DNA of 22,333 bases, from IMG/VR virus record IMGVR_UViG_3300046009_011038, positions 1 to 22,333 of that record; one strand, written 5' to 3'. The notes under the pieces are model-generated. The model had not been told where the DNA came from, ran no database searches, and saw only the letters and a list, made by a program, of their open reading frames with translations. Position numbers and translations under genes: made by a program. Positions 1 to 16,441 of the stretch are shown here, piece by piece. This stretch comes from a virus. The first letter of the stretch is position 1. Every line of letters starts with the position of its first letter.

Positions 1-69
1 AATTAAATTTTGCCGAAATTGTGCAAAATCTTTATTTAAGTATTTTACATCTTTTTTAACTAATTCCAT
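1..69 (-). CDS. baseplate wedge protein gp6-like, N-terminal fragment
   Basis: Partial gene: 23 codons run from an ATG at 69 off the left edge. The peptide begins MELVKKDVKYLNKDFAQF. A start of the form 'D-x-x-Y-x-x-x-D-F' is typical of gp6/J-type baseplate wedge proteins, which link neighbouring wedges of contractile tails. The start lies 14 nt inside the 3' end of the gp25-like gene, so the two are probably translationally coupled. In many T4-like marine phages gp25 and gp6 are neighbours, which supports the call. Only the first residues are visible, so the rest of the domain cannot be tested here. Confidence 0.6.
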   Translation of the reverse strand, partial: MELVKKDVKYLNKDFAQFRQNLI

Positions 70-646
70 TAAACTCTCCTGAACTAAAACGACCTACTGC
101 AACTAGTTGCGTGTTTACATTACTAACTGTAGTAACTTGCGATAATACAATTTGATTTTCTGATGCCAAAACGTTTATAACTAAATTTGCGCCTTGCTGA
201 CTAACTCGAAATGTTATAGCTACCTGTATGCTATTTTCATAAAAATTAGTACGCTTGACATCAACATCTAACAACTCTATATACGGTAACCAATATGCAA
301 CATCTTCCTCAATTGTAGATCTGATATTATCTAATAAAATATCTGTATTCTGTTCAAATATACTATCCTGTATCCTAGTGCCAAAGTTTGGCTGCATTAT
401 TCGCTCACCCTTACGTGTAAGTAATAGGTTAGATAAATTACTTATAGCTTGATCCTCAGTTGTATATGAAAGTGCAAATACTCCATTACCAGCTGCATAT
501 GTAGAATCAGATGCATAATCCAAAACACCGCCAGAGCCAGTTATTTCTAAACGTTGTATTGCTCCTTTATTAAAAGGCAATTTTATACCAACTGCTACAT
601 CGCTGGCATCAATAAAGGGTTTGTATTGATAAATGGGTCTAGCCAT
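56..646 (-). CDS. 25: baseplate wedge subunit, gp25/GPW family
   Basis: 196 aa. Residues about 60-130 carry the gp25-like (phage W/T4 gp25) signature: a helix AISNLSNLLLTRKGER (67-82), then QPNFGTRIQDSIFEQN (85-100), and a helix ending in PYIELLDVDV (121-130). This family forms the small wedge subunit of contractile-tail baseplates and holds the sheath-initiator region. T4 gp25 is 132 aa; this one has about 50 extra residues at the N-terminus and a longer C-terminal tail. Its ATG shares one base with the stop of the upstream gene (TAATG), and the gp6-like gene starts inside its 3' end. Family assignment is strong; the role of the extensions is unknown. Confidence 0.85.
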   Translation of the reverse strand: MARPIYQYKPFIDASDVAVGIKLPFNKGAIQRLEITGSGGVLDYASDSTYAAGNGVFALSYTTEDQAISNLSNLLLTRKGERIMQPNFGTRIQDSIFEQNTDILLDNIRSTIEEDVAYWLPYIELLDVDVKRTNFYENSIQVAITFRVSQQGANLVINVLASENQIVLSQVTTVSNVNTQLVAVGRFSSGEFNGIS

Positions 647-1083
647 TATCTAACACCCTTTTTCTTATCAATTGCTTTCATTAATGCCGAATAATCTTTA
701 GTCATTGCATTTACTACTGTAGCTACACTTTCTTTTTGCATATCAACTGGCTTACCGTCTAGATCATGTATCGGAGCCACAGCTGTTTTACTACTTGCAA
801 AAGCTTGTGCCATTTCTGAACTAAATGATAAAGTAGCTCCCTCAGATAAATTAATCGGGCGACTTGCAGTATCGTTTAATAATTCGTTAAGTAACGGATC
901 TTTAACAAAAGATTTAGGCTTTTGCGATTGTTTTTTAGCATTTATCACTGTTTCTGTAACCGGAGGAGTATATGTCTGATTAGTCCGTTCTGTTAATAGA
1001 CTACGTAATTCCGCACGTACAGCTGACTGCACTTCTTCATGAATAATAGTACGTAATGTCTTTATAAAAGACTTGGTATCCAT
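646..1083 (-). CDS. putative virion protein with N-terminal HEEV helix tag
   Basis: 145 aa. The N-terminus is a charged amphipathic helix (FIKTLRTIIHEEVQSAV, residues 6-22) of the same form as the LRNLIREE tags found at 14261-15622, followed by L-T-E at 30-32, a possible prohead-protease site of the T4 L-x-E type. The middle (about 33-60) is Thr/Pro/Lys-rich and looks disordered; the end is basic (IDKKKGVR). AAAGGA lies 5-6 nt before ATG and an ATATTTAT motif lies 13 nt before it. Its place between gp25 and other tail genes suggests a structural or packaged protein. No enzymatic motif is seen and the function is unknown. Confidence 0.7.
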   Translation of the reverse strand: MDTKSFIKTLRTIIHEEVQSAVRAELRSLLTERTNQTYTPPVTETVINAKKQSQKPKSFVKDPLLNELLNDTASRPINLSEGATLSFSSEMAQAFASSKTAVAPIHDLDGKPVDMQKESVATVVNAMTKDYSALMKAIDKKKGVR

Positions 1084-4582: not shown

Positions 4583-5194
4583 TTAAATTATTTCGTCAAT
4601 TATTCCGTATTGTTTTAACTGGTCTGCTGATAAAAATAAATCCGTACGCTGTTGTTGTTTCCACCAATTGGCATCTTTATTAGATTTAGATGCTAGCATA
4701 TTACATACATCATCTTCTAATGATTTGAGATTATTGATATAAGCTGTCATATCACTCATCTTAATGCCATCTGCAAAACTAATAGCCTCATGAAACATTA
4801 CACATGATCGCTTACTAGCCATACGCGTCCCAGTACCACATGCTAATATTACCGCTGCAGCACTAAAAGCACGACCACGACAAATTGTATTGACTGGTAC
4901 TGATAATGATTCAATGTAATCGACAATTCCTAGCATTTCATATACATCTCCACCATTGGAATTAATAATCAAATTGATTGGATAGTCCTTGGTAGCCGCG
5001 GTCCGCGATGATAAGATAGCACGTATTCGTATAATCAGATCTACTAATGTACGTTCATCGATATCTCCAGCTAAATAAACAACAGATGATTCGATATCAA
5101 CATATGTATCTAATTGCTGAGATATAGACTCATAAGGAGTACTCATAAGTTCTTCTACAGGTACACGTTTGTTTTTTTCTTCGTATATACTCAT
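4583..5194 (-). CDS. clpP: ClpP-type serine protease
   Basis: 203 aa, close to the length of bacterial ClpP. The catalytic triad can be placed: Ser111 in GRAFSAAAVIL, His135 in MFHEAIS, and Asp185 in RTDLFLSADQLKQYGIID, which aligns with the ClpP 'RDRFLSA...YGL' segment. The oxyanion region INSNGGDVYEM (77-87) matches ClpP 'INSPGG', with Asn in place of Pro. ClpP forms a barrel that needs an AAA+ unfoldase; no Clp ATPase is in this window. It may pair with a host ClpX/ClpA, degrade host proteins, or act in capsid maturation. The triad is firm; the role is inference. Confidence 0.88.
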   Translation of the reverse strand: MSIYEEKNKRVPVEELMSTPYESISQQLDTYVDIESSVVYLAGDIDERTLVDLIIRIRAILSSRTAATKDYPINLIINSNGGDVYEMLGIVDYIESLSVPVNTICRGRAFSAAAVILACGTGTRMASKRSCVMFHEAISFADGIKMSDMTAYINNLKSLEDDVCNMLASKSNKDANWWKQQQRTDLFLSADQLKQYGIIDEII

Positions 5195-6833: not shown

Positions 6834-7004
6834 TTAACTCAAAGAAATTCTATCCATAGCAAATTTAATTCTACTACGAATTTCGTTTAAACGGCGTACT
6901 GCCTCATTTGTGTCAACAGCCTTTTTACTAGCCAAATCAACTAATACCATAGCCATGTTATCAGCTTCGTCTAATCTACGTAACACATTGTCTTTGTCTT
7001 TCAT
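6834..7004 (-). CDS. 56-aa helical protein
   Basis: 56 aa: MKDKDNVLRRLDEADNMAMV at the start and RRLNEIRSRIKFAMDRISLS at the end. It is amphipathic and charged, with no membrane span. Support is strong from architecture: AGGAGG, the best ribosome site in the window, lies 8 nt before the ATG; the start overlaps the uvsE stop by 4 nt (ATGA); and the next gene starts after 1 nt. Helical proteins of this size and pattern occur in phages without assigned function. It may be a small adaptor of a neighbouring protein. Confidence 0.75.
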   Translation of the reverse strand: MKDKDNVLRRLDEADNMAMVLVDLASKKAVDTNEAVRRLNEIRSRIKFAMDRISLS

Positions 7005-8050
7005 ACTAAAACCTCCTGTTGTTTATATGCATAAATATCGCGGAACCGTAAAAGGGCCAATTCTTTACCTTTAGCCTCGATCATAATATCTAAAGGTAAT
7101 CCATATGTCTCAATAGGACCTTTGATATAATCGGCATGCGCTGTTTCTTTAATCTTATCAAATTCACGTTTATACTCTGCTAATGTCGGCCATTTGTCAA
7201 TATCATCAATATTGATATTGTTAGTCTTACACATATTATCTAGAAGTAATTGATATTCGCTACGTCGCGATTCTGACCAATGCGTAGCTTGTCGTATATG
7301 TGCCGGCCAAGTCTCACGCGCCAACATTAATGCGTCATACTCACTCAAACCATCTGTATGAAACTTATGATGATAATAGTCAAATGTAATAGGAATACCA
7401 ACGTTAACGTATAGAAAATTGTATAGCATTTGTACACTATACATACTAGCCTTATCATCATTTTCAACGACTAATCGGCGTTTCAAATTATCAGATAAGC
7501 GATCATAATTCCTAAGCCACGTCATTGCAGCTCGTTCAGGATTACCATATGCCCCGCCTAGATGTATATTGATCTTGTTCTCAAATGATGGCTCATAACC
7601 CATTAGGTCAAACATCTCGGAATGACGTTCAAGTCCAATAATAGACTTGTTAACAACTGCCTCATGAGGAGAACATAATATATGAAATTGTCCTGGATGG
7701 GTAGTCAATCGATGGCCATGTAATCGAGCAAAGTCGCCACATTCGCGTAGCTTAGCAGCTAGCGCGTCATAGTTAGGTAGATCGTTAAGCTCGTAATGAT
7801 CATGCCATGGAATAAGCTCAGAACCGATACGAAACAATGTAATGCCATTCTCTTGATTCCATTTAAGATAATGTAATAGATCCGTAGCATTTTGTAAAGC
7901 CAATTCGCCGAGCTTGGCCAACTCCCAACGTGGCTGCCAGGAATCTTTTCGAATGGTACGGCTGGTAGTAACACGTCCGCCTAATTTCTTTGGTCGGTTA
8001 GTTAATGTCATATTGACACAGGCATAACCTAATCTTACATTTTCATTCAT
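7001..8050 (-). CDS. uvsE: UV-damage endonuclease UvsE/UVDE
   Basis: 349 aa from the ATG at 8050. I choose this start because NVRLGYACVN (residues 4-13) is the expected N-terminus of the family; an in-frame ATG 17 codons upstream would lie inside the promoter element. Family motifs follow in order: FRIGSELIP (73-81), LTTHPGQF (115-122), NIHLGGAYG (161-169), ENDD (196-199), FDYYHHK (223-229) and HWSE (257-260), supplying the metal-binding His, Glu and Asp residues of the TIM barrel. UVDE nicks DNA 5' of UV photoproducts, starting excision repair, which suits a phage exposed to sunlight. A copy of the four-member promoter cassette precedes it. Confidence 0.92.
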   Translation of the reverse strand: MNENVRLGYACVNMTLTNRPKKLGGRVTTSRTIRKDSWQPRWELAKLGELALQNATDLLHYLKWNQENGITLFRIGSELIPWHDHYELNDLPNYDALAAKLRECGDFARLHGHRLTTHPGQFHILCSPHEAVVNKSIIGLERHSEMFDLMGYEPSFENKINIHLGGAYGNPERAAMTWLRNYDRLSDNLKRRLVVENDDKASMYSVQMLYNFLYVNVGIPITFDYYHHKFHTDGLSEYDALMLARETWPAHIRQATHWSESRRSEYQLLLDNMCKTNNINIDDIDKWPTLAEYKREFDKIKETAHADYIKGPIETYGLPLDIMIEAKGKELALLRFRDIYAYKQQEVLV

Positions 8051-8064
8051 ATGATATTTTTTTA

Positions 8065-8099
8065 TATACTTAATGATAAGTGAAAACCCGTACGAATCC
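8065..8099 (-). promoter_or_regulatory. promoter-like cassette, copy 1 (uvsE)
   Basis: Coding strand: GGATTCGTAC, then 9 nt, then CTTATCATTAAGTATA, ending 14 nt before the uvsE ATG. The same two blocks with the same spacing occur at 13817, 19262 and 21397. It can be read as a -10 TATCAT with a 17-nt spacer to TTGGAT. Unlike the others, this copy lacks the TTGATWATCAA dyad upstream. Confidence 0.6.
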
Positions 8100-8140
8100 A
8101 AATTTATTTTTAAAAAAATACACTTGGATAATGTACGGGC
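8087..8140 (-). repeat. imperfect inverted repeat over the uvsE promoter
   Basis: CCCGTACGAATCCAA (8087-8101) is mirrored by TTGGATAATGTACGGG (8125-8140): 7-bp and 6-bp stems separated by a 2-3 nt mismatch, with a 23-nt A/T-rich loop. One arm contains the conserved GGATTCGTAC block of the promoter cassette, so it could be an operator or a hairpin ending the upstream transcript. Confidence 0.45.
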
Positions 8141-10580: not shown

Positions 10581-10976
10581 TTACATTTGTTTTGGAATTG
10601 GAGTGGCACGGCGACCGCCTTTGGTGCGCAACTCTTCCAATTGTTCGGCAATTTCAATTTCAGCTCGTATCATTTGTTTCAATACACTTTTATCGTCAAC
10701 TAAACTCAGGATGGATTTGTAATTGCGATAAGGTGCATCAGAACCAGCTGCTTGTTCTGCCGATTTCATAAGCTCTTTAAAACGTGATGCAATGCCAGCA
10801 CGTAATTGTGATCTAAGCATTGTACCAAAGCCTACTACATAAACTTCTGGATCGATGGGATCGAAGTTCTTAGGGTCTAATAGGCGACCATAACGGTCAG
10901 ACGCCTCAGCTAGTATGGATTGAATCTCTTCACTGACTATCTGACGTATTCTATTTTTAAGATCGGTATGTTCCAT
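10581..10976 (-). CDS. tagged protein with candidate L-x-E cleavage site
   Basis: 131 aa from the ATG at 10976, which shares one base with the upstream stop (TAATG); an ATG three codons earlier is less likely. The N-terminus DLKNRIRQIVSEEIQSILAE (5-24) matches the helical tag of the 14261-15622 proteins, and L22-A-E24 followed by A25 is a good T4 gp21-type prohead-protease site. After it comes DRYGRLLDPKNFDPIDPEVY, then helices (LRSQLRAGIASRFKELM; IRAEIEIAEQLEEL) and a basic Pro-rich end. I infer an internal virion or scaffold-associated protein; no enzymatic motif. Confidence 0.65.
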   Translation of the reverse strand: MEHTDLKNRIRQIVSEEIQSILAEASDRYGRLLDPKNFDPIDPEVYVVGFGTMLRSQLRAGIASRFKELMKSAEQAAGSDAPYRNYKSILSLVDDKSVLKQMIRAEIEIAEQLEELRTKGGRRATPIPKQM

Positions 10977-11230
10977 TATTCCCAAAATATTAATTTAGCA
11001 ACTACACCTAATAATGTTATCCAGAGAGACCAAAGCGCGGCAGAGGCCGTTTTTCGAAATTCAGTATTTTTATTTACTCGCGCTATGGCCCCAGTATCTG
11101 GATCTAACAATGTACGTTTGATTTCAGAGACATCTGTTTGCATTTTTACTTGCACATCTCTTAAAACTTCAACGTCCTTTTTAATCAATTGTAACTCGTT
11201 GTGAATTTCTGATGTACTAGGCCTCGGCAT
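10976..11230 (-). CDS. coiled coil with C-terminal membrane anchor, XhlA-like
   Basis: 84 aa. Residues 6-45 form a heptad-like helix (IHNELQLIKKDVEVLRD; VQVKMQTDVSEIKRTLL), then DPDTGAIARVNKNTEFRK, and a hydrophobic span at about 63-82 (ASAALWSLWITLLGVVAKLI). This plan, a coiled coil followed by one C-terminal span, is that of XhlA-type holin partners and similar phage membrane proteins. It is translationally coupled to the tagged gene after it. A lysis role is possible, but it could equally be a virion- or replication-linked anchor. Confidence 0.6.
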   Translation of the reverse strand: MPRPSTSEIHNELQLIKKDVEVLRDVQVKMQTDVSEIKRTLLDPDTGAIARVNKNTEFRKTASAALWSLWITLLGVVAKLIFWE

Positions 11231-11234
11231 ATAT

Positions 11235-11420
11235 CTATGTCCTTTTTGATTCAGCTACCGATTGCTTACGGTATTCGGTAACCAATTTTTTAAACTCACC
11301 GGCTGCAGAGCGAGCTCTGGTCGCGGCTGATTTGTTTCCTTTGTTAACGAATTGATCATGATTAAGTTCAATCGCTTCCCAAAGCTGTTTCATCTGCGTA
11401 AATAATTCATTTGAAGTCAT
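11235..11420 (-). CDS. histone H1-like Hc1-family protein
   Basis: 61 aa. FVNKGNKSAATRARSAAGEFK (about 24-44) and KKLVTEYRKQSV match the Hc1 pattern 'F-x-KGNK-A-TR-R...E-KKL...R', a short helical chromatin-like family common in Bacteroidota and some phages. Lys/Arg-rich DNA binding fits, though the protein lacks the long basic tail of chlamydial Hc1. It could compact phage or host DNA. AAGGAAAA lies before the ATG and ATATTTAT 22 nt upstream. It ends 4 nt before the XhlA-like start. Confidence 0.7.
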   Translation of the reverse strand: MTSNELFTQMKQLWEAIELNHDQFVNKGNKSAATRARSAAGEFKKLVTEYRKQSVAESKRT

Positions 11421-11442
11421 AACATTTTCCTTTTTATTTTAA

Positions 11443-11450
11443 ATAAATAT
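11443..11450 (-). promoter_or_regulatory. ATATTTAT motif, candidate late promoter
   Basis: Coding-strand ATATTTAT 22 nt before the Hc1-like start, between it and the upstream stop, upstream of AAAAAGGAAA. If active it would put the DNA-binding protein and the tagged/membrane pair in a late unit ending at the hairpin 10542-10559. Confidence 0.45.
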
Positions 11451-11453
11451 ACA

Positions 11454-11708
11454 TTACATATAGTAGTCAGTATCATACGGGTCAGATTCATCAGTATCAG
11501 TTGCATCCTCAGTATAATCCGATACTTCGAATATACGGTTGAATTCAAGTTCTAATTCATACTCATCAACTACGTCTTTATCTAGACATTGATAAATGAG
11601 ATCCCCATCCAAATACACTTCTCCTATCTGTGTATCTTCGTCAATGAAAAATTCGAGTTCATCGCCTCGAAATATTTCACCTGTCATCATATTGTGTACT
11701 GTTATCAT
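11454..11708 (-). CDS. acidic hypothetical protein, 84 aa
   Basis: 84 aa, strongly acidic, ending in an Asp/Glu/Tyr-rich tail (DYTEDATDTDESDPYDTDYY). The N-terminal half looks like small beta strands (MITVHNMMTGEIFRGDELEF; IGEVYLDGDLIYQ). No known family. Acidic phage proteins of this size can mimic DNA or block host nucleic-acid binding proteins; for this one that is speculation. ATATTTAT lies 12 nt before the start. Confidence 0.65.
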   Translation of the reverse strand: MITVHNMMTGEIFRGDELEFFIDEDTQIGEVYLDGDLIYQCLDKDVVDEYELELEFNRIFEVSDYTEDATDTDESDPYDTDYYM

Positions 11709-11720
11709 AGCCGTTTATTA

Positions 11721-11728
11721 ATAAATAT
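11721..11728 (-). promoter_or_regulatory. ATATTTAT motif, candidate late promoter
   Basis: Coding-strand ATATTTAT 12 nt before the start at 11708; it overlaps the palindrome TTTATTAATAAA. It lies in the short gap after the 48-aa basic gene. Confidence 0.35.
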
Positions 11729-11729
11729 A

Positions 11730-11876
11730 TCAAGGACGACCTTGTCCGCGATATGCTTTTTTATAGTTCTTAGACTTTTTTGAACGGGCATTACGACATT
11801 TAGAATGTACCCCAGGTCGCTTTTTTTTAGGGTTTGGTGACCATGCGTTTATCGTTGATTTGCTGTTGCGTGCCAT
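11730..11876 (-). CDS. 48-aa basic RPGVHSK protein
   Basis: 48 aa, with 17 Lys/Arg: MARNSKSTINAWSPNPKKKR then PGVHSKCRNARSKKSKNYKK and AYRGQGRP. I recall short proteins with 'RPGVH-K...SKNYKK-Y-GQGR' in many aquatic phages, so I think it is a real conserved gene; function unknown. The composition suits nucleic-acid or ribosome binding. AAAAGGAC lies upstream. Its first 47 nt overlap the 3' end of the GTG-start gene 11827-12093; if both are real they share sequence in different frames. Confidence 0.7.
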   Translation of the reverse strand: MARNSKSTINAWSPNPKKKRPGVHSKCRNARSKKSKNYKKAYRGQGRP

Positions 11877-12093
11877 ATTTGTAGTCCTTTTTTATTACGT
11901 TTACTTTATAAATATGTAAACGTGTCAGACTCCAGTTTAAACGGCGCTTTAGTTCAGATATGTTACGTTTATCCGATGGCTGTGGGTAATCACAGTGTAG
12001 TACATATGGCCACCAGTCGCGGCCATGAGTTGTACCTACCAACACCTTATATAAATGGCAATACGGGAATGGTTTATTTGTCAGTTTCTCCAC
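11827..12093 (-). CDS. hypothetical protein, GTG start (uncertain)
   Basis: 88 aa, opened by GTG inside the end of the upstream gene (20-nt overlap); there is no useful ATG. Contents: PYCHLYKVLVGTTHGRDWWP (10-29), then YVLHCDYPQPSD and LKRRLNWSLTRLHIYKVN. The aromatic-rich, well-mixed composition looks protein-like, and otherwise about 190 nt would be empty. Against it: overlap of both neighbours and a clean hairpin with an ATATTTAT motif (11898-11922) inside the last third, which would fit a gap better. A shorter product cannot be excluded. Function unknown. Confidence 0.45.
   Translation of the reverse strand: MEKLTNKPFPYCHLYKVLVGTTHGRDWWPYVLHCDYPQPSDKRNISELKRRLNWSLTRLHIYKVNVIKKDYKYGTQQQINDKRMVTKP
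11898..11922 (-). promoter_or_regulatory. hairpin with ATATTTAT in the loop
   Basis: Coding strand: CGTTTAC-ATATTTATAAA-GTAAACG, a perfect 7-bp stem with the motif (11908-11915) in the loop, 31 nt before the ATG of the 48-aa gene. This is the same architecture as at 2781-2811, though the ribosome site lies just downstream of the stem rather than in it. Confidence 0.45.
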
Positions 12094-12373
12094 GTAAAAA
12101 CTTCTTTTGCTCGTTGATGATATCAGTTAACTCAGCGCTAGTTTCTGGTATATCTACGGCTGGTACGTTACCGCCTTTGGCTATGATATACCATGGCCGT
12201 TGCTTTTTTAAACTGGTATCTTCCCAGTCACAATTAGGTAGTATAGTACCGTCAATGCAACGAATATCATAGGTACCAGTCTCGCGAATATTGTATACTT
12301 TACCTACCCGAGGCGTACCTAACATACGAGTAGTTACAGTGTCTCCTACCTTGAGTTTATATCGTCTAGCCAT
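12074..12373 (-). CDS. SH3-like barrel protein, TYDIR type
   Basis: 99 aa. Residues 7-45 (LKVGDTVTTRMLGTPRVGKV then GTYDIRCIDGTILPN) look like an SH3/KOW-like barrel and align with the protein at 9950 (VG, V, R, G, VG, N-x-R, TYDIR). The rest is helical and polar with KKQRPWYIIAKGG and a Glu/Lys end. The two barrels differ in their C-terminal parts, so they may serve different partners. It lies 1 nt after the upstream stop. Function unknown. Confidence 0.65.
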   Translation of the reverse strand: MARRYKLKVGDTVTTRMLGTPRVGKVYNIRETGTYDIRCIDGTILPNCDWEDTSLKKQRPWYIIAKGGNVPAVDIPETSAELTDIINEQKKFLRGETDK

Positions 12374-12374
12374 A

Positions 12375-12653
12375 TTAGTAATACAATATTATTTTATTAT
12401 AATCGCTGCTACTTACAACGGCATTTACCTCCAATTCTATACGAGCTGTTTGCACTAAAGACTGCAGTGCATTGTCGTATCTGGAATCGAACATGACCGG
12501 AACTTGTAATAGCATTGTGACATACTCTTGTATGAAACGAATAATTTCATGCTCACTTTTTTCCGGCATTTTATGTGCTATCCATAGGCGCAGAAAATGT
12601 GCCAAATCATTAGCATTGCGGGTATTCAAATACCGTATGAAAACTTCTCTCAT
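12375..12653 (-). CDS. hypothetical helical protein, 92 aa
   Basis: 92 aa, mostly helical: FIRYLNTRNANDLAHFLRLW (5-24), HEIIRFIQEYVTMLLQVPVM and LQSLVQTARIELEV. No recognised domain, metal site or membrane span. Start and stop fit the tight spacing of the operon: its start overlaps the upstream stop by 4 nt and the next gene follows after 1 nt. Confidence 0.6.
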   Translation of the reverse strand: MREVFIRYLNTRNANDLAHFLRLWIAHKMPEKSEHEIIRFIQEYVTMLLQVPVMFDSRYDNALQSLVQTARIELEVNAVVSSSDYNKIILYY

Positions 12654-12832
12654 TGTTCAGGATTTTGCTGTTTGTAAACACGCTGCTCTACCTTATGACA
12701 GATTTCATTGAAGTGTTTACGGGAGGTGCTTATAGGGTAAGTGTTACCCCAGATAGTACCAACATTTGTCTCATTGATGGTGATCAGATCACCCGTTAAT
12801 TCAACGGTGTATTTACCGATTTCTCTTTTCAT
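12650..12832 (-). CDS. hypothetical protein, 60 aa
   Basis: 60 aa: strand-rich start (GKYTVELTGDLITINETNVG, 6-25), then a polar helix (FNEICHKVEQRVYKQQ). Small phage protein with no known family. ATATTTAT ends 8 nt before its ATG with no ribosome site between, so an RNA begun there would be nearly leaderless. Confidence 0.6.
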   Translation of the reverse strand: MKREIGKYTVELTGDLITINETNVGTIWGNTYPISTSRKHFNEICHKVEQRVYKQQNPEQ

Positions 12833-12840
12833 AGTTTTCT

Positions 12841-12848
12841 ATAAATAT
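12841..12848 (-). promoter_or_regulatory. ATATTTAT motif, candidate late promoter
   Basis: Coding-strand ATATTTAT in the 22-nt gap between the SWIM gene and the 60-aa gene, 8 nt before the ATG. Same motif as the other copies. Confidence 0.4.
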
Positions 12849-12854
12849 ACGTGA

Positions 12855-13166
12855 TTACATTGCTAAAGCCTGGGCAATATGTTTACATTTTTTATGGTAG
12901 GAAAATCCTACACAACTACATGATGGCTGCCCGAATTGGTTGAAACTAACAGTATAGGCATTACCTTTACTGCCGGCAATTTGTATAGTTTTTGGCTGAT
13001 GTATCGGCGCTATATCATTACGACCGATTACCTGTATATCATCAATAGTTGTATCATCTGGTACCAATTGCCAAGCCGGTACTACATATGTTTTACCAGA
13101 TGATCGTACTATACCAAAACCACCTCCAGGAGTCAGTAAATTGGCAGGAATCTGTATTTTACTCAT
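12855..13166 (-). CDS. SWIM zinc-finger protein
   Basis: 103 aa from the ATG at 13166. I choose it because MSKIQIPANLLTPGGGFGIV is a natural start, whereas the earlier ATG (13226) lies well inside the upstream gene. The C-terminus has CSC-x8-CKH (C83, C85, C94, H96), the SWIM CxC...CxH zinc finger found in proteins that bind DNA or other proteins, including ATPases and transposases. The N-terminal part (GGFGIVRSSGKTYVVPAWQL) is probably a small beta domain. A stand-alone SWIM protein may be a DNA-binding or adaptor factor in the phage. Confidence 0.75.
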   Translation of the reverse strand: MSKIQIPANLLTPGGGFGIVRSSGKTYVVPAWQLVPDDTTIDDIQVIGRNDIAPIHQPKTIQIAGSKGNAYTVSFNQFGQPSCSCVGFSYHKKCKHIAQALAM

Positions 13167-13176
13167 AACAGGATTT

Positions 13177-13353
13177 TTAAAAATAACTAGCTGTACAACG
13201 GGTTCGGTATTGCAATCGCTCATCATCAGACATGCGATTTAGGAGTTCAAACAAACTGCATTCATATCGATACACTGTATGAATATCTGTCACCGTATCA
13301 GTTAATTCCAACAGATACAATGCTTGTTCCACTAACGAATTTTGATAGCTCAT
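13177..13353 (-). CDS. 58-aa helical protein
   Basis: 58 aa: MSYQNSLVEQALYLLELTDT at the start, then IHTVYRYECSLFELLNRMSD and DERLQYRTRC. Two amphipathic helices, no known family. It fills the space between the SWIM gene and the small membrane protein, starting 1 nt after the latter's stop. Function unknown. Confidence 0.6.
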   Translation of the reverse strand: MSYQNSLVEQALYLLELTDTVTDIHTVYRYECSLFELLNRMSDDERLQYRTRCTASYF

Positions 13354-13354
13354 A

Positions 13355-13564
13355 TTATTTGATTATATTTTTAATACAGAATGCTAGTATTAGTATCGCA
13401 ATGGCCACAACGACCGGTATCCATAAAGGTGCTGTAACCCACCACCAACTCCAATCAATGTGATTGGTAAGCTTGAGTACTAGGAATATCAAAAAAAGTA
13501 CAGTACCTAAATTTAGGTCAATGCCGCTCGTCGACTGCGTTTTATGATTCATACTGGATTGCAT
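13355..13564 (-). CDS. small two-span membrane protein
   Basis: 69 aa. A polar N-terminus (about 1-17) is followed by spans at about 18-34 (LGTVLFLIFLVLKLTN) and 46-66 (PLWIPVVVAIAILILAF), joined by HIDWSWWWVTA. The 'IDWSWWWV-P-W-P' loop is one I recall in many small phage and bacterial membrane proteins of unknown function. A second ATG at codon 5 is possible. It starts 4 nt after the 71-aa gene's stop and shares its promoter cassette. Confidence 0.7.
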   Translation of the reverse strand: MQSSMNHKTQSTSGIDLNLGTVLFLIFLVLKLTNHIDWSWWWVTAPLWIPVVVAIAILILAFCIKNIIK

Positions 13565-13568
13565 ATTT

Positions 13569-13784
13569 TTATGCGTAAACTGTGGTTGTAACTTCGGACT
13601 GCAACTCTCTCATCCAATCTTCTCCTATATGCCGTCGGACAAAGCCCGCATCAATCCAGCCGTCAACTGTAATGCTTGCGCCGTCATTGACACATCCTTT
13701 GAAGTATAGTGCAGTATTATTCAATCCACATTTAGTGAAGTAACTCACTACATCTGCGAGTTTCATTCTGCTAGTGTTCGCCAT
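13569..13784 (-). CDS. hypothetical protein, 71 aa, first gene of a promoter unit
   Basis: 71 aa: MKLADVVSYFTKCGLNNTAL (7-26), then YFKGCVNDGASITVDGWIDA and a polar end. Mixed alpha/beta, no known family. It is the first gene after promoter cassette copy 2 (32 nt to the start) and a large inverted repeat, so it is probably one of the earliest expressed genes of its unit. Confidence 0.6.
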   Translation of the reverse strand: MANTSRMKLADVVSYFTKCGLNNTALYFKGCVNDGASITVDGWIDAGFVRRHIGEDWMRELQSEVTTTVYA

Positions 13785-13816
13785 CTTGTGTATTTTTTAT
13801 TTGCATATCTTTTTTC

Positions 13817-13851
13817 TATACTTAATGATAAGGACTTTTAGGTACGAATCC
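13817..13851 (-). promoter_or_regulatory. promoter-like cassette, copy 2
   Basis: Coding strand: CTAGGATTCGTAC, then CTTATCATTAAGTATA at the same spacing as copies 1 and 4, preceded by TGTAACTTTTCTTACTTTTT, an A/T-rich stretch that could act as an UP element. It ends 32 nt before the ATG at 13784. Possible -10 TATCAT and -35 TAGGAT with a 17-nt spacer. Confidence 0.6.
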
Positions 13852-13881
13852 TAGAAAAAAGTAAGAAAAGTTACAGAAAAG

Positions 13882-13960
13882 TGTAACTCATTGATAATCA
13901 ATTGGTTATAAAGTACTGATTTACAATAGATTATAAGTTGTTGATTATCAATGAGTTACA
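13882..13960. repeat. 20-bp perfect inverted repeat with TTGATWATCAA dyads
   Basis: TGTAACTCATTGATAATCAA (13882-13901) and its exact reverse complement (13941-13960) flank a 39-nt A/T-rich spacer. Each arm contains the 11-bp dyad TTGATWATCAA, which also occurs upstream of cassette copies 3 and 4. It could be a pair of operator sites, an enhancer or a replication-initiation site. Confidence 0.7.
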
Positions 13961-14071
13961 AAGCAAAGATCGTTCATTTAACGAACTCGAGGGGTAATCT
14001 GGTATTCTGATATTCCCAATTGGGATTGAGTTCAAAATACGTTCTGTATTATGGGCAGATCTAAGGGTAAA

Positions 14072-14248
14072 TTACGCCTTTTTACTTAAGGCACTCCAAA
14101 GTACGGCTACTATACCCATAACGGCACCAGTTACCATAGTCCATGAAGCTTCATCAGTTTTACCCTTGTAAACCAGAATAGCGCCAACAGCTGTAAGCGC
14201 GTGACGAATAATACCAAATGTTTGCTCTTGTGTTAGTTTCAGTTTCAT
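14072..14248 (-). CDS. holin-like protein, Pam3-gp28 type
   Basis: 58 aa: MKLKLTQEQTFGIIRHALTA, then VGAILVYKGKTDEASWTMVT and GAVMGIVAVLWSALSKKA. The 'GIIRH-LTAVG-ILV-KG--DE' segment followed by a G-rich hydrophobic helix and a Lys end matches the Pam3-gp28-type holin family as I recall it. Two spans, at about 13-27 and 38-54. Holins permeabilise the inner membrane at lysis. It sits immediately downstream of the tagged genes (12 nt gap). No endolysin is in this window, so the lysis call rests on family resemblance. Confidence 0.7.
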   Translation of the reverse strand: MKLKLTQEQTFGIIRHALTAVGAILVYKGKTDEASWTMVTGAVMGIVAVLWSALSKKA

Positions 14249-14260
14249 GTTTATCTTTAT

Positions 14261-14560
14261 TTAGAAATTAAAATCATCAAGTGCATCTGTCATTGCCTTT
14301 AGCAGAGCCTTTTCTTGTTGCGGTGTTATTGGTTCTTCCTCTAGCCATTTAGAGTATACATCATCTAGTTTAGCATCCATCATGGCACCTTGTACCCAAT
14401 CTAAACCTTCATCACCGTTTTCATAGAATTCAGCATGCACTTTACGTAGTTTTTTACCAATCGGTGATAACGTAGCTTCATTAACTACTACACGTTTACG
14501 TGTACGTAGTACATTACGAATCTCTTCACGTATCAAATTTCGTAAGTCCGATTTTTTCAT
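14261..14560 (-). CDS. tagged internal-virion-type protein (MKKSDLRNLIREE)
   Basis: 99 aa. The N-terminus MKKSDLRNLIREEIRNVL is nearly identical, even in DNA, to that at 15169, and V26-N-E28 followed by A29 is a near-consensus L/I-x-E prohead-protease site. After it comes ATLSPIGKKLRKVHAEFYEN, then a helical, acidic region (GLDWVQGAMMDAKLDDVYSK). A strong AAAGGAT site precedes the ATG. By analogy with T4 internal proteins, the tag may target it to the prohead and be cut off. Mature function unknown. Confidence 0.7.
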   Translation of the reverse strand: MKKSDLRNLIREEIRNVLRTRKRVVVNEATLSPIGKKLRKVHAEFYENGDEGLDWVQGAMMDAKLDDVYSKWLEEEPITPQQEKALLKAMTDALDDFNF

Positions 14561-14596
14561 ATATATCCTTTAGTTAATACCTTTCACACTAGCGCC

Positions 14597-15169
14597 TTAT
14601 AGTTTATTTTTTTGACGAGTCAACTTAAGCGTTGCTATTGATAGCAGAGTTACTACAAAAAATACCAAAAAGGCATATGTACCTAACTTAAACCAAATAC
14701 TACCTTCGGCAGCCTTTGCTCCATATAAGTCTGTCATAACACGCATTACATCCGACTCTGCCATTCCTTGAATATACTCATAATACCACTTAGTAAATGA
14801 CGCATCCAAGTAGGTCATACCTGCCGAGAGCGCTGTAATTGCGCTGACTGCAGAGCCCATGAGACCTGCACGGAGTGCTTTTCTAGAAAAATTACGAATC
14901 GTATCTACGAATCCTTCATGAAGGGCTTGAGATTTGGTTTGTAACTCACTTTGTGCTTTGCTAATGTAATTAGCTGGTAGTGGCTTGCTTGCGAGTTTGT
15001 TCATATCAATAAGCTTCTCAGCGTCTTGATAACTATCCTTTGCTGCTTTTGTTGCAGCTGCTTTAATCTGACCAAAGAAGTCGCTTAACTTACCCTCTGA
15101 TAGTTGCTGTTCAAAAACTGCTAATTGTACTTCTTCACGTATTAAATTTCGTAAGTCCGATTTTTTCAT
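14597..15169 (-). CDS. tagged two-span membrane protein
   Basis: 190 aa from the ATG at 15169. An ATG two codons earlier lies within the AAAGGATG ribosome site, so I use the start matching the tag of the next gene. Tag MKKSDLRNLIREEVQLAV, then L23-S-E25/G26 as a probable cleavage site. The mature part has a helical, Lys/Ala-rich region, a span at about 98-118 (AGLMGSAVSAITALSAGMTY), FTKWYYEYIQGMAES, and a span at about 157-180 (LGTYAFLVFFVVTLLSIATL) with a basic end. It is a paralog of the 15905 protein. I infer a virion-packaged membrane protein, possibly delivered at infection; unproven. Confidence 0.75.
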   Translation of the reverse strand: MKKSDLRNLIREEVQLAVFEQQLSEGKLSDFFGQIKAAATKAAKDSYQDAEKLIDMNKLASKPLPANYISKAQSELQTKSQALHEGFVDTIRNFSRKALRAGLMGSAVSAITALSAGMTYLDASFTKWYYEYIQGMAESDVMRVMTDLYGAKAAEGSIWFKLGTYAFLVFFVVTLLSIATLKLTRQKNKL

Positions 15170-15178
15170 ATACATCCT

Positions 15179-15622
15179 TTAGTTGACACCTTTCACGCCA
15201 GCGCCTTTAATAGCTTTCTTAACTTGTGCTGGTGACATTTTAGAATAAACGTAAGCAGTGAAGCCGATACCAGACTCACCATTATCATTTTTCATTGCAT
15301 GTATTTTGACATTCTTAACGTCATCACCGCCGAGGCTAGCCATACCTTCTGCACGATCACCTTGAATAGCTTGTGCAACTTGCTTAGCCATTTTGAATGC
15401 AGCATTTGCATTTTTAGCAACATTGTTGATATTTAATCGCTCTCTATCAGAATGGAAGTAAGATACGGCATATTCATATTCACCCTGACCGCCTTCGTCT
15501 GGGGTCATACCTGAATTACGCCACATTACAAACTCTTTTGGAAGTGCAAAGGTTGCTTCATTTAAGCCTGTCATGTTTTTTACTTCTTCACGTATCAAAT
15601 TTCTTAATTGTAATTTGTTCAT
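15179..15622 (-). CDS. tagged soluble protein (MNKLQLRNLIREE)
   Basis: 147 aa. Tag MNKLQLRNLIREEVKNM, then L20-N-E22/A23, a textbook T4-type protease site. The mature protein is mixed alpha/beta with WRNSGMTPDEGGQGEYEY, FHSDRERLNINNVAKNANA and a Lys-rich end (AQVKKAIKGAGVKGVN). AAAGGAT precedes the ATG. No known family. It lies 3 nt before the next downstream ribosome-site region, in one unit with the other tagged genes. Confidence 0.72.
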   Translation of the reverse strand: MNKLQLRNLIREEVKNMTGLNEATFALPKEFVMWRNSGMTPDEGGQGEYEYAVSYFHSDRERLNINNVAKNANAAFKMAKQVAQAIQGDRAEGMASLGGDDVKNVKIHAMKNDNGESGIGFTAYVYSKMSPAQVKKAIKGAGVKGVN

Positions 15623-15631
15623 TTATATCCT

Positions 15632-15883
15632 TTATAGTTCATGATACCCTACACGGGCCTGATTGATAAAATTATAGCTTTGTGTGATATGGTCTTGAAT
15701 CCAACCCGGTAGGTTGATTTCATTAGTACCAATTAATTGTGATAGTTCTACAGCTGCTTTAGCTATTTCCTGTAGTTGCGCTTGTGCCATACCCACCTCA
15801 TGGTCTTGGCCTGGTAAACCAGTTTCTGATAAACGTAATTCTCGAGGTATACGGGCGTTACGCTGTAAACGTTCAATGTTCAT
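15632..15883 (-). CDS. small helical structural-type protein (LPGWIQDHI)
   Basis: 83 aa. A basic start (IERLQRNARIPRELRL) leads to L18-S-E20/T21, another L-x-E site, then a helix-rich body with LQEIAKAAVELSQLI and the end NLPGWIQDHITQSYNFINQA. The 'LP-W-Q-HI--A-NYI-QA' ending is a pattern I associate with packaged or scaffold-related proteins of aquatic T4-like phages. It lies in the tagged block, 9 nt before the next gene. Function unknown. Confidence 0.65.
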   Translation of the reverse strand: MNIERLQRNARIPRELRLSETGLPGQDHEVGMAQAQLQEIAKAAVELSQLIGTNEINLPGWIQDHITQSYNFINQARVGYHEL

Positions 15884-15904
15884 AATTTATAATCCTTAAA
15901 TGGT

Positions 15905-16441
15905 TTATACTAAATGTTCATATTCTGATGGCAATGTACCTAAACGCTTAAGTCGCTTCATTTCACGAATACCAATGTAGTATACTATACTAAACGCAAA
16001 TATTACCAAAAATATAAATAATCCAGCTGCCGCTAATGGACTGTCTGGTATGATACGATCTACAACTGCACTGGCCATGGGTCGTATAGCTTTATCATAC
16101 CATGACATAAAACTATCTAATAAATAATCACCAGCTGATAACGCACTTAGTCCAAACGTCAAAGTATTCCAAAGTTTACTAGACCATTTTTTTATATCAT
16201 CATAACTGATCTCAGTTAAACGATTAACTTGCTGTGTAAGCTTTTTTGTAATGGCATGTACATCTGAAATTGCAATAGGCTCTTGACGAATTAAGTCTAT
16301 GTCTACATGTTTAGATGCATCACGATATCTGCGTTTTGCCAAATTCATTGCACTATACGCAATATCGCGTATATCACTTAATGATACAGATTCATTGAGT
16401 AAATGATTAGGTATGGTATATGGCAATCTATAAGTATTCAT
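15905..16441 (-). CDS. two-span membrane protein, untagged paralog with LNE site
   Basis: 178 aa. It aligns through its body with the 14597 protein: AKRRYRDASKHVDID with AKDSYQDAEKLIDMN, then SALSAGDYLLDSFMSWYDKA with SALSAGMTYLDASFTKWYYE, and two spans at matching places (about 93-108 and 134-155). It lacks the LRNLIREE tag; its first residues are MNTYRLPYTIPNHLLNE, with L15-N-E17/S18 aligned to the tagged protein's L-S-E/G. So the cleavage site seems kept while the tag differs. Basic C-terminus KRLKRLG. Likely virion or membrane-delivery protein. Confidence 0.72.
   Translation of the reverse strand: MNTYRLPYTIPNHLLNESVSLSDIRDIAYSAMNLAKRRYRDASKHVDIDLIRQEPIAISDVHAITKKLTQQVNRLTEISYDDIKKWSSKLWNTLTFGLSALSAGDYLLDSFMSWYDKAIRPMASAVVDRIIPDSPLAAAGLFIFLVIFAFSIVYYIGIREMKRLKRLGTLPSEYEHLV

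Follow-up and report, generated by a model that had tools for sequence, protein, structure and literature searches.

A shared N-terminal helix ending in L-x-E as a likely capsid-targeting sequence in T4-like phages

An N-terminal helix shared by several genes of an uncultured phage is likely a capsid-targeting sequence, T4-like in its working and new in its sequence. Docking, cleavage, packaging and injection are inferred, and no virion data are available. Sequence comparison established the modularity of the tag, its Glu-specific end, the presence of gp21 in relatives, the location of tags inside the prohead module, the exchange of cargo and the scaffold counterpart of a second tag. The initial annotation had proposed that the tagged proteins are packaged in the prohead and then cut. 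The sequences support this reading, while packaging and cleavage remain inferred because virion proteomics is lacking. The system had also been called phage-specific, which is too narrow, since a broad range of T4-like phages carries the tag. A second, scaffold-derived tag goes beyond the initial annotation.

Tagged genes of the window

The window, the whole stretch of DNA analysed, is a genome fragment of 22,333 bases from an uncultured phage. It is placed among the T4-like myoviruses because of a gp25-like gene at one end. Head genes and gp21 are absent from these 22 kb. The features are listed by position; a slash marks the predicted cut, and the helix tag is called tag 1.

56..646, minus strand: T4 gp25-like baseplate wedge gene (phrog_261, E 9e-21)
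988..1083, minus strand: extended tag (MDTKSFIKTLRTIIHEEVQSAVRAELRSLLTE/R) at the start of gene 646-1083, which lies upstream of gp25
10905..10976, minus strand: weak tag of gene 10581-10976 (MEHTDLKNRIRQIVSEEIQSILAE/A)
14072..14248, minus strand: flank of the cargo block (tblastn homologues in L109, L110, L112-L114, L121 and L122)
14261..14476, minus strand: cargo part of gene 14261-14560, no family match
14477..14560, minus strand: residues 1-28 of gene 14261-14560, tag 1 up to the predicted cut (MKKSDLRNLIREEIRNVLRTRKRVVVNE/A)
14523..14598, minus strand: 76-bp repeat (blastn) of a 15179-like 3' end remnant (GASVKGIN-stop), intergenic DNA and tag
14597..15094, minus strand: cargo part of gene 14597-15169, two hydrophobic stretches, membrane-spanning by look, no family match
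15095..15169, minus strand: residues 1-25 of gene 14597-15169, tag 1 up to the predicted cut (MKKSDLRNLIREEVQLAVFEQQLSE/G)
15132..15207, minus strand: second copy of the 76-bp repeat, from the 3' end of gene 15179 (GAGVKGVN-stop) into the start of gene 14597
15179..15556, minus strand: cargo part of gene 15179-15622, unmatched in Pfam and PHROG, 60% identical in L360
15557..15622, minus strand: residues 1-22 of gene 15179-15622, tag 1 up to the predicted cut (MNKLQLRNLIREEVKNMTGLNE/A)
15632..15883, minus strand: gene combining a DHEV cargo domain with an N-terminus like tag 2 (MNIERLQRNARIPRELRLSE/T)
15905..16441, minus strand: gene distantly related to 14597, its N-terminus different and ending in LLNE/S

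Most claims of the initial annotation on these genes held. Three adjacent genes (starts at 14560, 15169 and 15622, minus strand) begin with LRNLIREE, and weaker forms of the helix are present at 10976 and 1083. The tag DNA of the three genes is nearly identical, as claimed: 33-38 of the first 42 nt agree, compared with only 10-17 of the following 42 nt. On a profile made from unrelated tagged genes, the five window tags score 35.4, 30.8, 26.5, 8.0 and 5.1 bits, the 99.99th percentile of internal protein positions being 3.9. The named sites were exact, i.e. VNE/A at residues 26-28, LSE/G at 23-25, LNE/A at 20-22, LAE/A at 22-24 and LTE/R at 30-32, and LSE/T and LNE/S were confirmed in two neighbours. 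A small residue after the Glu was confirmed only loosely. Both neighbours had been described as untagged, which is wrong for gene 15632-15883; a variant of the second tag (ERLQRNARI) is present there, followed by LSE.

The L-x-E site is kept in orthologues. The L360 orthologue of gene 15179-15622 retains LIREEV...LNEATF with a different spacer, and orthologues of gene 14597-15169 read LTE/S (L235) and LTE/G (L382). Gene 10581-10976 and four divergent orthologues keep [LI]-x-E as LAE, IME, LME, LNE and LNE. The extended tag directly upstream of gp25 recurs in most of the contigs L001-L028, many of L060-L079, Flavobacterium phage immuto and Mel-JY01. The weakly tagged gene 646-1083 speaks against the main reading, since it adjoins the baseplate gene gp25 and holds no obvious head-cargo position. 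A gene with a long tag-like helix upstream of gp25 is located in the baseplate cluster of the window (646-1083), immuto (81525-81944) and Mel-JY01 (162421-162993). The window also encodes a ClpP-like protease (4583-5194, E 1e-29) and a UvdE-type UV endonuclease (7001-8101, E 2e-53).

Tag 1 in related phages

L-x-E followed by a small residue occurs within residues 13-38 of 12 of the 49 window genes, and the motif therefore proves little inside the window. For this reason public viral contigs were searched, and the support rests on related sequences. The seed was a DNA pattern for residues 1-13 only, leaving out the L-x-E region. It yielded 136 non-redundant tagged proteins. Most relatives are fragments, and gene calling in the contigs simply took the longest ORF. 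A profile was used in place of a loose motif, because the latter also matched terminase and scaffold N-termini. Most internal matches of the pattern belong to one family, seemingly the small terminase of unrelated phages (it adjoins the terminase), and were set aside. Isolate phages gave no megablast match to the window, and tblastn with a 21-residue tag was equally negative. A search of the open-access literature by peptide letters retrieved no report of either tag.

The consensus MKxSELKxLIREEIxKxLxE (132 sequences) covers residues 1-20 only, and conservation ends at the Glu at residue 20. [LIV]xE is located exactly at residues 18-20 in 107/136 proteins and anywhere in residues 14-35 in 126/136, compared to 45 ± 5 in shuffles; about 7% lack it in that range. 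[LIV]xE[AGS] is present in 55/136 (9.3 ± 3 in shuffles). Shifted sites often recur further along, e.g. in window genes 14597 and 14261. Where residue 18 is aliphatic, residue 20 is Glu in 108 proteins and Asp in none; in the cargo parts Asp is slightly commoner than Glu. Such an end is what a Glu-specific protease would impose, an inference from sequence alone. In T4, Asp at the processing site blocks processing, not targeting (PMC9026906).

Two alternatives concern the tag itself. It may be a permanent docking or oligomerization helix of the tail, the baseplate or another assembly, never cut, with L-x-E merely as the helix end. The conservation of the weakly tagged gene 646-1083 beside gp25 fits this explanation, as does the prediction of the tag as a helix in low-confidence models. 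Against it stand the 108:0 ratio of Glu to Asp at position 20, the preservation of L-x-E despite a changed distance from the helix, the stop of conservation at the Glu, and the site of the second tag between peptide and body in both orientations. A permanent helix is thus considered unlikely. Alternatively, the shared N-terminus may be a DNA-level feature without protein role, such as a translation start, a promoter or a recombination site. The near-identical DNA in three window genes and a 76-bp repeat spanning a gene start point in this direction. However, third codon positions vary across the 136 tagged genes where the residue is kept. At pattern-free positions, e.g. 18 and 20, the second base is the most conserved and the third is freer. 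This alternative is considered highly improbable.

Prohead protease and core genes

The link of the window to gp21 rests on relatives, because the fragment carries no head genes. The 67.9-kb contig G002 is a relative of the window, with the same gene order and a gp25 59% identical to that of the window. It encodes a gp21 (E 1.6e-27), and its gp20 (portal), scaffold and gp23 were identified by position and sequence. A tagged ORF lies between protease and scaffold, inside this T4-type prohead module. The initial annotation had set the joint occurrence of tag and gp21-type protease as a test beforehand, and the test was supported by G002 and by all eight tagged records of at least 99 kb (8/8). 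Among tagged records of at least 40 kb, gp21 was detected in 15/31, compared to 5/23 random contigs of at least 40 kb, a moderate difference (p about 0.04). An HK97-type protease and capsid were found in none of these 31 tagged records. The strict DNA pattern was present in 1/39 prohead contigs and 0/50 random contigs, a comparison without power. RM378 has the protease and lacks the tag.

Cleavage-site motifs are enriched around the protease. In ten genomes, proteins within 4.5 kb of gp21 contain 314 LxE[AGSN] motifs, 2.4-fold the 129 expected, and 64 LxD; proteins elsewhere in these genomes contain 1614 LxE and 1588 LxD. The gp23 propeptide site is near-uniform, reading QLV[TS]E followed by A, V or N in all 58 distinct sequences. 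The small core gene between portal and protease bears tag 1 in several lineages, e.g. MKKSELKKLVQEILQE/ISTTG. Tagged genes are not confined to tail clusters; prohead modules contain them, and so do separate arrays of cargo genes. In portal ORFs, a conserved internal helix (YNEMRELIREDAKR; around residue 471 in immuto 120621-122474, for example) resembles tag 1; chance or mimicry is possible.

Cargo and its exchange

The profile matched about 4-11 times in each of seven large gp21-carrying contigs, and the matches often formed runs; a few low-scoring matches in large contigs were terminases and were not counted as tags. In G045, six tagged genes follow each other consecutively from 101803 to 104772. 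The cargos behind tag 1 differ in length and sequence and share no alignable core (6% mean column identity). At E 0.001, Pfam matched 2/132 tagged proteins and PHROG likewise 2/132, neither with a telling function. The structure model of window gene 15179 is weak (pLDDT 56). The tagged genes L345:8171-8839 and L202:2700-3350 show a weak likeness to ADP-ribosyltransferases with an LYHFT motif, a possible analogue of T4 Alt. The Pfam values (E 0.02-0.04) failed the cut-off, and no function is claimed because the model is poor (pLDDT 47).

The two copies of the 76-bp repeat in the window are 92% identical (70/76, blastn). The repeat extends across a gene end, intergenic DNA and the tag; therefore the array was built, at least partly, by duplication across the tag. 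The sister locus L393 has an identical flank 15632 and a flank 14072 that is 91% identical, with five tagged genes carrying other cargos in between. The L393 gene 10358-10654 resembles window gene 14261-14560 at 57/75 nt in tag and spacer, and at 28/75 nt in the cargo. The DHEV domain of gene 15632 is preceded by tag 1 in L201 and by a form of tag 2 in L691. It is also part of a prohead-core protein adjoining gp21 in L665 and L690. In other phages, distant homologues of the flank 14072..14248 directly precede the scaffold gene.

Such arrays could also arise if a single gene family had simply expanded, with diverging cargos and the N-terminus as its slowest-evolving part. Some tagged genes are indeed in tandem, and gene 15905 is distantly related to gene 14597 (15905..16441 matches L382, which bears the 14597 orthologue, with a tblastn E of 8e-5). 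The lack of an alignable core among the cargos, the occurrence of one cargo domain behind different tags, and the same tag and spacer before different cargos in the window and L393 contradict this explanation. It is regarded as very improbable.

A second tag from the scaffold

The peptide RMQKLAGI (tag 2) is the C-terminus of the scaffold. In 71 of 98 distinct occurrences it lies at most four residues from the C-terminus, and 62 of these 71 have [LIV]xE up to 20 residues before the peptide. Genes with the C-terminal peptide are directly upstream of the gene for the major capsid protein (MCP) in 78/88 cases. On accessory genes RMQKLAGI is N-terminal (24/98), with [LI]xE directly after it in 24/24. 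The cut is presumed to fall between peptide and body in both orientations; this is again read from the sequences only. Some genes combine both tags (L211, G028:108719). The L087 orthologue of window gene 15632-15883, the carrier of ERLQRNARI, reads ERLQRLAGI...LSE/G.

Further tag-like ends were observed. L384:5607-6161 (184 aa) ends in ELRLLIREEIKSILK, possibly a C-terminal form of tag 1. A possible third tag is the recurrent N-terminus, roughly (N)F-x-[LIKF]-[KR]-x-[FYW]-L-x-E-[NS]-K-L, on unrelated genes (immuto 117631, 118632 and 125241; L690:3412; L691:6420), which is nearer to YQEFIAE of T4.

Comparison with known systems

The capsid-targeting peptide of T4 is reportedly MKTYQEFIAE, cut by gp21 at L/I-x-E. 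The T4 sequence on IPI-IPIII and Alt is likewise an N-terminal propeptide of 10-20 residues common to unrelated cargos (PMC9026906, PMC5694885). It is cut after Glu by gp21 and blocked by Asp, and it also belongs to a phage with T4-type head genes and exchangeable cargo (PMC9026906, PMC5694885). The present tag, MKxSELKxLIREEIxKxLxE, differs in sequence and is, by prediction, a longer amphipathic helix. It is carried by up to about 11 genes per genome, and the second tag copies the scaffold C-terminus.

Head propeptides of phiKZ-like phages (gp53 and gp54 of SPN3US, and others) are similar: the N-termini are conserved although the head proteins have diverged, and a relative of gp21 cleaves them after Glu (PMC5694885). 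In contrast to the present tags, SPN3US cuts at A-x-E and phiKZ also at S-x-E, and most of the propeptides are much longer than 20 residues. As with T4 gp22, the scaffold gene is directly upstream of the MCP gene; the recurrence of its C-terminal peptide as an N-terminal tag on accessory genes is different, and no report of it was found. The tagged core gene between portal and protease resembles gp67 and gp68 of the T4 prohead core. In T4, gp21 cleaves proteins of the core (PMC5694885).

Proposed mechanism and significance

In the capsid-targeting reading, the tag would attach its protein to the core or shell of the still open prohead; the docking partner of tag 1 is unidentified. A gp21-type protease would cut after the Glu of [LIV]-x-E and remove the tag. 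The freed protein would stay in the head with the DNA and be delivered into the next host. Tag 2 copies the scaffold C-terminal RMQKLAGI and would work alike, being cut off between this peptide and the protein body. The block at about 14261-15883 would represent an exchangeable cargo island, joined by new cargos through duplication and recombination at the tag DNA.

A bolder reading is favoured by a narrow margin. In this case, a large aquatic clade of T4-like phages would load cargo by two codes, the helix tag, also present on a prohead-core protein, and the scaffold C-terminal peptide moved to the N-terminus. Both would be detached at L-x-E, and they would mark an exchangeable pool of uncharacterized injected proteins, numbering in the hundreds. 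If this is true, injected effectors of uncultured phages become readable from sequence.

Phage proteins that are packed and injected are hard to recognize because they resemble nothing known. As portable peptides, the tags could serve to load other proteins into the heads of phages other than T4, and the scaffold-derived tag hints at the origin of such labels. A readable label would turn part of the phage dark matter into testable early effectors, e.g. for anti-defence or host takeover.
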